From NCBI GenBank assembly GCA_017481595.1, contig JAFUOY010000034.1:1-40516 (forward strand): a DNA stretch of 40,516 bases, written 5' to 3'. Below the pieces are notes generated by a model. The model searched no databases. It was not told the origin of the DNA and saw only the letters and a program-made list of their open reading frames with translations. The translations under genes and the position numbers were made by a program. Positions 18,907-36,967 of this stretch are shown here, one piece after another. The DNA comes from Clostridia bacterium. GTDB lineage: Bacteria; Bacillota; Clostridia; Oscillospirales; CAG-272. Positions within the stretch are counted from its first letter, which is position 1. Every line of letters begins with the position of its first letter.

Positions 18907-18948
18907 GTAAGTGTATGCCTTGTTTTAAAAATATTGGGAGGAATTTAT

Positions 18949-20583
18949 ATGAAAATTTTTAAGATCGTTGTAAAATCTGCAATAATTGCAACGTATATCG
19001 GTATGATCGCGATACTTATTCTCCTTGCCCTTACTCCCGGAGAAAAATCCTCAGATATAAGTAATAGCGTCGGTGATAAGTTCAACGAGGTTACCCCTGA
19101 CGTAATCGAGCCTGAGGTTCCCGTCGTCAACGTGGAAAGCGTAGAAATAAAATACCTTACCGTTGGCAGTACAAAATATACAGAAAACATTTCCATTTTT
19201 GCAGGTCAGTCTGGTGAGCTCACCTGTAAGGTGCTTCCCAATGATGCAACAAATCCGTCCTTAAATTATTCCTCCTCTGACGATAAGGTTGTCAAGGTAT
19301 ATTCCTACGGTAAGATCGTTGCAACGGGCGAGGGTACCGCTACTATTACGGTTACCTCCGCGGAAAACGGTGAAATTATGGATACCATTACCATTAGCGT
19401 GTCAAAGATCTTTGCCGAGGGTGTTGAATTGGATAATATTCCCGACGATTTTCACGTTGGTGAATCTCACAAGCTTGATGTAAAGTTTACTCCGTCAAAC
19501 ACATCTGACAAATCAGTTACATGGACTTCCTCCGATCCGTCGGTGGTTACTGTTAATGCAAACGGCTCCCTTTCCGCAAAAAAGGAGGGTACTGCTATAA
19601 TTACTGTTACCTCAAAGGAAAATCCTGCTCTTACCGACAGTGTGGAAATAACCGTGCTTCCTAAGATTATTGTTCCCGTTATTCCTGTTGAATCCGTAAG
19701 CATTTCGGGCAGCAACGGTATCGGATATATCGGCTCCGATATTAAGCTTACCGCAAAGCTCTTCCCTGCCAATTCCGTTGGTAAGGTGGAATGGTCCAGC
19801 TCAAACAACAGCATTGCTACCGTTTCACAGAAGGGTGTTGTAACCTGTCTTTCCGCAGGTGAGGTTACTATAACCGTAAAATGCGGAAGCGCTCCCGCAA
19901 GCAGCATCAATATCGTTGTAAAAGAGGTTCTTTCAAAGAATATTAACCTTGAATTCAAGGATATCAACACCACCGAGGACGGCGAATACACTCTTAAGCA
20001 GGGTAATTCGGGTAAGGTAATTGCTACACTTGATGAAAACGCAACTGTACTTACCATCACCTACTCCTCCTCTGATGAAGAGGTTGCAATAATCCGCGCA
20101 GACGGTGTAATCGAAGCATTGAAGGGCGGAACTACTACCATTACAATTTCAACGTCCTACGATGGCGAAACAACAGAGGTTTCCTTTGATCTTAATATTG
20201 AACGTATTACTCTTAAGGACACCATTGAAAATTACTATTCCGTATTCAGAAAGTCCTTTGGACATTACGGCGCGTTCCTTATGCTTGGTATTTTCGGCTC
20301 GCTTACCTATTACATAATCTTCAAGAAGGATATAATCGGAAGACTTATTGCTTTTGGAGTTAATATGGCGGCAGGATTTGGCGTTGCAGGACTTACTGAA
20401 ATTTTGCAGCTCCCCTACTTTACAGAGGGAAGATATTGCAGCTGGAAGGATGTAATGCTGGACTTCAAGGGATATTGCACGTCATCAATTCCGTTGTACG
20501 CAATAATTATCGGCGTATATATTCTTGAAATAATTATAAAAAGAGAGATAGAAAGAAGAAAGAACAGCTCTGATAATAAATAA
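18949..20583 (+). CDS. VanZ-like membrane protein with inserted bacterial Ig-like (BIG2) domains
   Basis: I start this 544-residue protein at the ATG at 18949, 7 bp after GGGAGG. A TTG five codons upstream would include that SD sequence. Residues 1-30 form one membrane helix ending in LALTPGEKSSDISNS, like the first helix of VanZ. Residues 62-417 hold about four Ig-like beta repeats, each with WSSS/YSSSD and GTATITVT-type strands. The C-terminus (about 438-530) returns to membrane helices with FGHYGAFLMLGIFG, TEILQLPYFTEGRYCSWKDVMLDFKG, the remaining VanZ motifs (E484, R495, D501). The domains therefore interrupt VanZ between helices 1 and 2. Its role is unknown; it may be wall or peptidoglycan linked. 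Confidence 0.85.
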   Translation: MKIFKIVVKSAIIATYIGMIAILILLALTPGEKSSDISNSVGDKFNEVTPDVIEPEVPVVNVESVEIKYLTVGSTKYTENISIFAGQSGELTCKVLPNDATNPSLNYSSSDDKVVKVYSYGKIVATGEGTATITVTSAENGEIMDTITISVSKIFAEGVELDNIPDDFHVGESHKLDVKFTPSNTSDKSVTWTSSDPSVVTVNANGSLSAKKEGTAIITVTSKENPALTDSVEITVLPKIIVPVIPVESVSISGSNGIGYIGSDIKLTAKLFPANSVGKVEWSSSNNSIATVSQKGVVTCLSAGEVTITVKCGSAPASSINIVVKEVLSKNINLEFKDINTTEDGEYTLKQGNSGKVIATLDENATVLTITYSSSDEEVAIIRADGVIEALKGGTTTITISTSYDGETTEVSFDLNIERITLKDTIENYYSVFRKSFGHYGAFLMLGIFGSLTYYIIFKKDIIGRLIAFGVNMAAGFGVAGLTEILQLPYFTEGRYCSWKDVMLDFKGYCTSSIPLYAIIIGVYILEIIIKREIERRKNSSDNK

Positions 20584-20600
20584 ATTTTATAGTCTGTATA

Positions 20601-20617
20601 CCAAGCCTGTGGTTTGG
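20601..20617. repeat. Isolated hairpin unit related to the last unit of palindromic array 1
   Basis: CCAAGCCTGTGGTTTGG differs from the unit at 20923-20939 (CCAAGCCTGCGGCTTGG) at two positions and still pairs through a G-U pair. Both copies are followed by ATAAA and then a terminator hairpin, so the unit-plus-terminator arrangement occurs twice. Confidence 0.6.
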
Positions 20618-20621
20618 ATAA

Positions 20622-20652
20622 AAAAGTCGTATCGGTAAGATACGACTTTTTT
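20622..20652 (+). terminator. Terminator of the VanZ/Ig-like gene
   Basis: A 12-bp perfect stem AAAAGTCGTATC / GATACGACTTTT with a GGTAA loop is followed by further T residues. Confidence 0.85.
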
Positions 20653-20673: not shown

Positions 20674-20718
20674 TATCCAAGGGGAGTCTCCTTATTATCC
20701 GAGGAGAGTCTCCTCTTG
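20674..20718. repeat. Two degenerate tandem copies of the tmRNA 3'-end sequence
   Basis: ATCCGAGGAGAGTC at 20697-20710 is identical over 14 nt to the tmRNA 3' end at 20991-21004. A weaker copy, ATCCAAGGGGAGTC, lies just before it at 20675-20688. These copies and the real tmRNA end enclose palindromic array 1, the arrangement expected of an attachment-site duplication. Confidence 0.6.
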
Positions 20719-20765
20719 TATTTTGTAAGGCAATTCAAGAGCTTTCCACCAACTCGCATCCCAAT

Positions 20766-20939
20766 CACGCCGGAGGCGTGTATATCATCCGCAACTTGTT
20801 GCGGCATATCATCAATGCGAAGCATTGTATATCATCAAGCCGCAGGAAGATGCACGCAGGCGCGTGATGAGATGCACGGCGTTGCCGTGATGATATCCAG
20901 CCCCGCAGGGGCTGATGATATGCCAAGCCTGCGGCTTGG
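20766..20939. repeat. Palindromic array 1: variable hairpins with ATATCATC/GATGATAT linkers
   Basis: Seven clear hairpins are strung together: CACGCC-GGA-GGCGTG (20766-20780), CGCAACTTGTTGCG (20790-20803), AATGC-GAA-GCATT (20814-20826), CACGC-AGGC-GCGTG (20853-20866), CACGGC-GTT-GCCGTG (20875-20889), CAGCCCC-GCA-GGGGCTG (20898-20914) and CCAAGCC-TGC-GGCTTGG (20923-20939). The first three are followed by the linker ATATCATC (20782, 20806, 20829). The fifth and sixth are followed by its reverse complement GATGATAT (20889, 20914). The linker therefore flips direction mid-array, around the degenerate ATGAGATG at 20867. No open reading frame is credible here. I know no named family. Confidence 0.9.
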
Positions 20940-20945
20940 ATAAAC

Positions 20946-20982
20946 AAAAAAGGAACTTTTGGTAGACAAAAGTTCCTTTTTT
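20946..20982 (-). terminator. Terminator of tmRNA
   Basis: A 16-bp perfect stem (20946-20961 with 20967-20982), core GGAACTTTTG, with loop GTAGA and A6/T6 ends, begins 2 bp beyond the tmRNA CCA end on the minus strand. Confidence 0.9.
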
Positions 20983-20984
20983 GT

Positions 20985-21374
20985 TGGTGGATCCGAGGAG
21001 AGTCGAACTCCTGTCCGAAAATCCGTTGATACAACCTTCTACGTGGGTAGTTACTCTTTTATTTTTCTCCTACGAAACGCCGAGCAACAGGCTTTTTTTC
21101 AGATAGTCTTTTAATGCTTGACCGATACAAAGACTAAATCTCGGTTCAAGTTCACCGTTTGATCACGCCCCATCCGAGGTCACGGTACTCCTCGGCGGGA
21201 CGGGTGGCATTATATGCCACAGCACTGCCGCTAATCACCCCGAAGGGTAATTAGTTAGGCAGCCATAGCAACTTTATTGTTGTCGTTTATTATTTAAGTT
21301 AGCCATTATACGGGATTAGCCAGCCCGCCACGCTTATCATATCTCAAAATCCCCGTCGAAACCATTACGGACCC
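20985..21374 (-). ncRNA. ssrA: Transfer-messenger RNA (tmRNA)
   Basis: The 390-nt RNA starts GGGTCCGTAATGGTTTCGAC at 21374, the usual tmRNA 5' signature, and ends CGGATCC-A-CCA at 20985. The 5' GGGTCCG pairs with CGGATCC to form the acceptor stem, and the T-arm GGAGTTCGACTCTCC is intact. The tag reading frame ends in NDNNKVAMAA followed by TAA (21257-21255). Working upstream, the codons before AAC are ATA ATA and then TAA, so the usual alanine resume codon is not apparent in this frame. It rescues stalled ribosomes with SmpB, which is encoded two genes upstream on the same strand. Confidence 0.95.
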
Positions 21375-36717: not shown

Positions 36718-36923
36718 GTGAAATATTCGGCGTTGCCGAATGTGAAATAATGTGCTAACGCACATTGTGAAATATTGCTCCCTATGGTCACAATGTGAAA
36801 TATTGCTCCCTATGGTCACAATGTGAAATGAAATTTGCCCACATTCGCGTCAGCGAATATTTCACATTTGCAATGCAAATATTTCACAGCGAAGCTATTT
36901 CACTTACCCGCAGGGCAAATTTC
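36718..36923. repeat. Palindromic array 2: variable hairpins with GTGAAAT/ATTTCAC linkers
   Basis: The linker GTGAAAT occurs at 36718, 36742, 36767, 36795 and 36823, and its reverse complement ATTTCAC at 36859, 36881 and 36897. Between them lie hairpins ATTCGGC-GTT-GCCGAAT (36725), AATGTGC-TAAC-GCACATT (36749), ATTCGC-GTCA-GCGAAT (36843), ATTTGC-AAT-GCAAAT (36866) and AGC-GAA-GCT (36888). A 28-bp unit is repeated exactly in tandem (36767-36794 and 36795-36822). An outer pair GAAATTTGCCC (36830-36840) and GGGCAAATTTC (36913-36923) encloses the reversed half. No credible coding frame exists. Confidence 0.9.
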
Positions 36924-36926
36924 GTT

Positions 36927-36967
36927 AAAAAAAGGCACCTTTGTCGGTAGACAAAAGTGACTTTTTT
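36927..36967. terminator. Terminator-like hairpin bordering palindromic array 2
   Basis: Arms at 36927-36945 and 36950-36967 pair imperfectly, with A7 and T6 ends. The loop-side GGTAGACAAAAGT is identical to that in the tmRNA terminator at 20961-20973. Beyond it the sequence is CA-TGGTGC, matching the offset at which tmRNA has its CCA end, but I cannot identify a tRNA here. Confidence 0.6.

Follow-up and report, generated by a model that had tools for sequence, protein, structure and literature searches.

The array of small hairpins at positions 20764–20939 of the DNA analysed here (40,516 nucleotides of a contig from a Clostridia bacterium, hereafter the window) has, in our judgement, an even chance of belonging to a family of mobile, non-coding DNA that is assembled from oriented hairpin-linker modules and acts as single-stranded DNA. 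The first-pass annotation of this stretch had described seven short hairpins on a constant 8-mer linker that turns round mid-array, and the array as such is real. The longest stems of the seven segments add up to 39 bp, against a mean of 19.1 and a maximum of 28 in within-segment shuffles (n = 2000); six of the seven segments reach p values of 0.0015–0.0175 each, uncorrected for seven tests, and the middle segment (20847–20865) is weak, with p = 0.11. The reversal is equally plain, as the plus strand reads ATATCATC three times (20782, 20806 and 20829), then the variant GATGAGAT as sixth linker (20866–20873), and then GATGATAT twice (20889 and 20914). Exact ATATCATC occurs 10 times in the window on both strands, with 1.74 expected, and the spaced pair ATATCATC-N10..24-ATATCATC occurs 3 times, compared with 0.00 over 100 shuffles. 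The folding check that had been proposed was also passed: the segment 20755–20945 has a z score of -4.64 when folded as DNA and of -3.97 and -4.25 when its two strands are folded as RNA, and none of 200 shuffles folded as well. Two objections had been raised in advance. Degraded coding sequence is unsupported, with no Pfam family found at E 0.001 in the three short ORFs that cross the array, and the pairing exceeds that of shuffles of the same composition, so that neither objection refutes the observation of the array.

Read on the minus strand, the unit begins with the intrinsic terminator of a tmRNA gene (RF00023, 20985–21374, minus strand, placed by Rfam search), which lies directly upstream of the array, with smpB farther upstream. 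This terminator (20943–20985, minus strand, inverted repeat I2) consists of two perfectly complementary 19-nt arms and serves as the first module of the element; a terminator is likewise included in a stretch that another copy shares across genera (see below). On the same strand follow the end hairpin K0 (20923–20939, CCAAGCC-GCA-GGCTTGG), linker L1 (20914–20921), the segment of hairpin H1 (20897–20913), linker L2 (20889–20896), hairpin H2 (20876–20888), linker L3 or its equivalent (20866–20873), which is a variant, ATCTCATC, that other copies carry at the same place, and hairpin H3 (20854–20865), the weak one of this copy. The centre strand K0' (20837–20846, CCTGCGGCTT on the minus strand) complements one arm and the loop of K0, as judged from inverted repeat I14 and from covariation. 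Beyond it the modules lie on the plus strand, namely linker R1 (20829–20836) with hairpin H4 (20814–20826, containing GCGAAGC), R2 (20806–20813) with H5 (20790–20804), and R3 (20782–20789) with the segment of H6 (20764–20781), the distal end of the array. Linkers L1, L2 and R1 to R3 were located by exact match to ATATCATC, H1 and H2 by folding and stem shuffles, H3 by stem shuffles, and K0 and H4 to H6 by sequence reading and stem shuffles. The earlier description of the linker as an 8-mer thus holds in part: the linker is there, but the constant part between hairpins is about 10 nt long, G(T/C/G)ATATCATC, the adjoining terminator is part of the unit, and the half hairpin at 20837–20846, which complements the last hairpin, had been missed.

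The surroundings of the array hold further repeats. A likely remnant at 20597–20652 (minus strand, repeats D1 and I4) consists, by eye, of a terminator, a K0-like hairpin and TATA, and ends where the first linker would start. Just past the far end of the array, at 20675–20710, the tmRNA 3' end recurs twice in partial form (ATCCGAGGAGAGTC, 86% and 100%, repeat D2), and the array looks as if placed between an intact and a broken tmRNA gene end. The region 18934–20583 encodes a protein that carries repeats of the bacterial Ig-like type (Big_2) and resembles VanZ in its C-terminal part, with a VanZ score of 29.1 bits (cut-off 30.1).

A search of related genomes, as the first-pass annotation had proposed, was successful. 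In the array's own genome (1.87 Mb, 62% complete) the pattern ATATCATC-N10..24-ATATCATC has 34 matches, of which two places, on contig C3, are a different tandem repeat, and the reversed pattern has 0. Thirteen copies of the array were read in this genome, one of them cut short, and their alignment with K0 first yields a single plan: terminator, TATCC, K0 hairpin, L1 H1 L2 H2 L3 H3, K0', R1 H4 R2 H5 R3 H6, in which L stands for ATATCATC and R for its reverse complement. Among 59 copies parsed by script, a number of distinct sequences rather than of independent events, which includes two false copies (L225 and L240, chance or hybrid) and three in the wrong direction (L048, L296 and L304), 42 have the layout of three L and three R linkers. 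The linker pair was found in 21 of 29 genomes of the genus, the array's own included (G009 with only a non-palindromic match), and in 102 of 295 genomes and 45 of 71 genera of the family, where the reversed-pattern control gave 4 matches, and therefore some of the single matches are due to chance. A strict pattern for class A, that of the ATATCATC array, matched 29 of 245 genomes of the order and 0 controls. The distribution is patchy, with 0 to over 30 linker-pair matches among species within one genus (g19, g23), and an identical 46-nt stretch, from L2 through H3, is present in genomes of the three families f1, f10 and f17. No publication on the ATATCATC array was found in the open-access library searched.

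Some loci depart from the plan. Three own-genome copies, L026/L039, L033 (C8:46898-47217) and L032, have a second palindrome (GGGGTTCCCCGAAGC...) in place of the K0 loop, giving a hairpin within a hairpin, and locus L042 (G000:C3:16600-17700) is a tandem of a different hairpin repeat that uses GATGATAT and GATGAAATCC. In G012 (L227-L241), arrays on TATGGAATC and GTGATAT linkers lie together with ATATCATC arrays inside larger nested dispersed repeats; a reading of these as a clean burst that would define the ends of the element was rejected on account of that nesting.

The stems vary and the linkers are constant across copies, as had been noted for the single array, and the pairing is kept by compensating changes. 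Covariation was assessed in 40 distinct 3+3 copies (L225, L240, L048, L296 and the non-3+3 copies, among them L304, were left out), in which stem pairs are nearly always Watson-Crick despite up to four pair types at a position. Pair 2 of H2 is Watson-Crick in all 40 copies (CG 22, GC 11, AT 7), against a shuffle maximum of 24, and pair 7 between K0 and the centre, which involves a K0 loop position, is so in 39 of 39 (one K0, that of L134, was unreadable) with three pair types, against a shuffle maximum of 27; in both cases the shuffles ignore shared descent. K0 and K0' change together, as in AAGCCGCAGG/CCTGCGGCTT, ATTGCGAAAG/CTTTCGCAAT, ATTACGGAGT/ACTCCGTAAT and AAGCCGATAG/CTATCGGCTT. Several other pairs vary little in these 40 copies and stay within the shuffle range, e.g. 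H1 pair 1, H4 pairs 1–2 and K0:centre pairs 1, 5, 6 and 8. Because K0' covaries with K0, K0 can either fold locally on itself or pair over a distance in a stem that encloses H1–H3. The earlier suggestion of selection on structure, or of a copying mechanism that acts on it, survives as an idea, with the modification that the data point to the oriented hairpin-linker module as the unit and not to the hairpin alone.

The view that no named family has this layout did not survive, as the Rfam family Gut-1 (RF01706) is a sibling of the array, and one of its copies lies in the same window. The Gut-1 match (58.2 bits, 36854–36927) and a right half that is outside the model make up a class B element at 36718–36927 on the minus strand, in which layout reading identifies a K0 (GAAATTTGCCC...), three GTGAAAT linkers with hairpins, the centre GGGCAAATTTC and five ATTTCAC linkers with hairpins, i.e. 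a 3+5 layout, with a promoter-like sequence after it. The Rfam model covers three hairpins and their linkers, one half only. At E 0.001, Gut-1 was found in 28 of the 29 genus genomes (24 above the cut-off) and in 64 of 147 genomes sampled from the order (52 above the cut-off); in both surveys 1 of 14 control genomes, that of E. coli, gave a match, which was below the cut-off. The ATATCATC array itself, searched permissively against the Gut-1 covariance model, reached at best 16.1 bits (E 1.4; cut-off 50 bits), and the regular Rfam search of the window listed no Gut-1 match at 20.7–20.9 kb. By eye, in a layout scan and in site surveys, the same plan was seen with the linkers ATGAAAT, GTGATGT, TGATGTT, GTGATAT and ATGAAGC, and in a hybrid with ATGTAAT; since the sequence-independent scan drew on the loose-linker loci among the matches listed, the number of linker classes is a lower bound. 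Most linkers resemble AYWTCAY in the direction of the linker strand, i.e. the strand reading ATATCATC, ATTTCAC, ATTTCAT, ACATCAC or AACATCA.

Arrays of different classes occupy the same chromosomal sites in different species. In 25 genus genomes, the position behind the tmRNA gene carries class A in four (G000, G003, G016, G017), class C in one (G020) and class E in two (G005, G009), and no array was seen in 18 within the roughly 120–430 nt covered (about 120 nt in G001 and G018). Behind tRNA-Trp, also in 25 genomes, we found class A in four (G000, G001, G017, G018), the Gut-1 type (B) in two (G008, G010), C in one (G019), an E-like array in one (G028) and other linkers in one each (G009, G013); none was seen over the same range of lengths in 13, and the contig ends there in two (G011, G022). 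The class A arrays of G017 and G018 follow a second copy of the tRNA-Trp 3' end. At these two loci (L365 and L356), as well as in L025 (1650–1890), an element of about 150 bp, with a reversed T-arm copy by eye, duplicates tRNA 3' ends, and the arrays stand behind the duplicate. Two tmRNA matches each, 950–976 bp apart, were noted on G014:C23, G015:C20, G025:C17 and G026:C29.

Copies in different genera can be nearly identical. Locus L344 of G228 (genus g9) shares 94.5% identity over 236 bp, terminator included, with L035 of the array's own genome, and the shared stretch starts at the last bases of different tRNAs; the background divergence of the two genomes is far larger, with tmRNA 72% identical over 101 bp and SmpB 72% of residues. 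L338 (G208) and L058 (G018) are 90.9% identical over 275 bp. Only 2 of 20 loci from other genera exceed 90%, the best long matches of the other 18 lying at 67–87%, and all these comparisons are between metagenome bins, which can be mixed. The two copies at L242 have the same right half and differ in H1 and H2. Because different classes, or no array, are seen at the same sites in sister species, the distribution is patchy and 236 bp are nearly identical across genera, this kind of array appears to be mobile DNA, and on the sequences at hand its history can be read as horizontal spread with module exchange. No clean empty-site pair was found among the compared sites, which come from species with tmRNA 72–90% identical, and no target duplication was recognised by eye in the copies inspected.

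Genomic context was scored in 73 of 75 class A copies (two with too little upstream sequence were dropped; L240 is among the 75, and the tmRNA-linked copy L255 entered via the tmRNA search). A tRNA or tmRNA gene of the same strand lies at most 110 nt before K0 in 43 of the 73, K0 is immediately preceded by a terminator-like hairpin and its T-run in 60, and a TATAAT-like box follows within 160 nt downstream in 28, all three counts being without control positions.

The hairpin loops obey a strand rule. On the linker strand, the 115 triloops include 50 of the form GNA and 2 of the form TNC, with a C-G closing pair in 107 of the 115, and the 39 tetraloops include 22 GNNA and 0 TNNC. Within class A, the K0 half holds 16 G..A and 3 T..C loops and the distal half 0 and 31; within the Gut-1 class the K0 half holds 0 G..A and 9 T..C and the distal half 11 and 0 (Fisher's test between the K0 halves of classes A and B, p = 3e-5), many other loops being of neither type. 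Four class A copies that were parsed in the opposite arrangement, in an uninspected parse, also obey their linker (2 and 2 loops). Since both classes were taken K0 first, what the rule tracks is the linker, whichever way this runs from the terminator. Which strand to call the linker strand was decided with the class A and class B loops already in view, and the flip between halves therefore weighs more as evidence than the agreement between classes. Mini-hairpins of DNA with a GNA or GNNA loop on a G-C stem are described as ultra-stable in PMC4686876, which cites Hirao and Yoshizawa, and the loop rule favours single-stranded DNA, though ancestral modules could also have passed the loop bias on. 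In predicted energy the linker strand is favoured both with RNA parameters (163 vs 34) and with DNA parameters (71 vs 39), and we rejected this comparison as a discriminator between DNA and RNA, since both sets favour the same strand, RNA more clearly.

The strongest competitor is a structured non-coding RNA or 3' UTR RNA, as published for Gut-1, whose left half would be a three-hairpin junction closed by K0:K0' and which would be transcribed by read-through of the tRNA or tmRNA terminator or from a promoter of its own. It would account for hairpins and a long-range closing stem that covary, for folding as RNA that beats shuffles and for the preference of RNA parameters for the linker strand, and Weinberg et al. 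2010 (PMC2864571), the only publication on Gut-1 found in the open-access library searched, list this motif among those most likely expressed as ncRNAs. We nevertheless regard an RNA as unlikely. A single transcript would not explain the flip of the loop rule between halves, which points to opposite strands within one array and, as K0 is on the terminator side in both classes, makes class A and Gut-1 run in opposing directions; the terminator-like hairpin and T-run stand directly before K0 in most copies (60/73); and among the tetraloops UNCG is absent (0/39) and GNRA makes up only 10 of the 22 GNNA loops.

Two further explanations seem to us improbable, and about equally so. Arrays might have no function at all, if template switching during replication repairs quasi-palindromes and the linkers provide microhomology for exchange and fold-back, which would yield the mid-array inversion. 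Stems that covary with differing loops, the differing H1 and H2 of the two L242 copies, and long, terminator-like hairpins at module places (L066, L284, L187) are what such a process could leave behind, but a 3+3 layout in 42 of 59 copies, one plan shared across linker classes and a K0' that matches K0 together with its loop exceed what drift would be expected to produce, and the presence of arrays at many tRNA sites is left unexplained. Alternatively, the array could insulate transcription or supercoiling between operons, with a terminator on one side, the next promoter on the other and cruciform-prone DNA between them. The frequent terminator-like hairpin (60/73) and the downstream TATAAT-like box (28/73, without control positions) fit this arrangement, whereas the 18 of 25 sister-species genomes with no array seen at tmRNA and the patchy match numbers do not, and insulation alone does not need variable stems on a constant, oriented linker.

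Under the mobile-element explanation, the unit would start with a terminator and K0, continue with three modules of linker + hairpin on one strand and a centre able to pair with K0, and close with three modules on the other strand. Copies would spread horizontally and settle preferentially behind tRNA and tmRNA genes with their terminator, and the working form would be folded single-stranded DNA. From the strand rule we infer a trans-acting enzyme, a putative nuclease or recombinase, that would read the linker where it adjoins the foot of a hairpin, whichever hairpin this is, and need that foot to be paired; the linker would be constant, and the stems free to drift as long as they pair, because the putative enzyme reads the linker at the hairpin foot. 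Modules would be exchanged at linkers, and the element is most likely non-autonomous. A RAYT/Y1 transposase as the mover is not supported, as its presence does not track array load: Y1 (PF01797) occurs in 12 of 29 genus genomes and was not found in the array-bearing G000 (incomplete), G001, G008 and G012, and a search for exact linkers at 20 Y1 loci revealed no full array, the closest being two ATGAAAT 29 bp apart (L223) and three class E linkers within 25 bp (L225). Carriage by phages was considered as well. An 18-mer spanning K0'-R1 matched two IMG/VR contigs (L327 inside a long ORF, L328 in no listed ORF), neither with an array, and was judged chance; the strict class A pattern gave 13 IMG/VR matches, three of them arrays by eye (L386 and L390, of the same sequence and beside an apparent tRNA end, and L391) and the other ten not arrays. 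The three arrays are probably host flank of proviruses.

More tentatively, and with somewhat less confidence than a coin toss would warrant, Gut-1 and the ATATCATC array may form one large, unnamed superfamily of mobile DNA, with at least seven linker classes in this gut-bacterial order, which would move and recombine as folded single-stranded DNA through an enzyme that recognises the linker and the hairpin shape and not the stem sequence, and in which K0/K0' would act as a switch, K0 either folding locally or closing the array through a long-range stem. For the orphan Rfam family Gut-1, the analysis supplies a complete anatomy, numerous relatives and a hypothesis at the DNA level that can be tested. 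If true, the proposal points to a gut-bacterial enzyme that recognises a shape together with a short linker at the 3' ends of tRNAs. If the DNA reading holds, the loop strand rule offers a simple test by which hairpin arrays of mobile single-stranded DNA can be told from RNA genes, and it cautions that covariation, however strong, is by itself no proof of RNA.

Several known systems resemble the array in part. Like CRISPR, it combines constant and variable parts, but its constant part is a linker of 8–10 nt, its variable parts are palindromic and its orientation reverses, whereas CRISPR repeats measure 20–40 nt and the spacers are unique and non-palindromic. Double-hairpin elements and GC clusters of fungal mitochondria are also mobile hairpin elements, whose mechanism is not established; they are organellar and have one or two hairpins without an array on a constant linker. 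The array shares with MITEs that it is short, non-coding, multi-copy, patchy and common to several genera; in the copies inspected, neither terminal inverted repeats nor a target duplication turned up, and no parent transposon was found. REP/REPIN (BIME) sequences, the partners of RAYT transposases, are described in PMC3116915 as small dispersed intergenic hairpin DNAs in inverted pairs with compensatory changes, predicted to form single-stranded DNA hairpins and non-autonomous, and the array matches them in its inverted halves and strand-oriented hairpins. No RAYT link was found for it in 29 genus genomes and at 20 Y1 loci, and REPs keep the sequence of the palindrome, whereas the array keeps the linker and its palindromes vary across copies and positions. 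Closest of all is Gut-1, in which different hairpins are likewise arrayed on one constant short linker, copies stand behind terminators and tRNAs and occur in the same genomes, and the plan, with its unmodelled right half, is again K0, linkers, K0' and reverse-complement linkers. The two differ in the linker, GTGAAAT in Gut-1 and ATATCATC in the array, and, seen from the terminator, in the strand that carries the GNA loops, which is opposite. The ATATCATC array thus adds a new linker class to the Gut-1 kind, and the comparison of sequences provides evidence that this kind is mobile and perhaps not an RNA.
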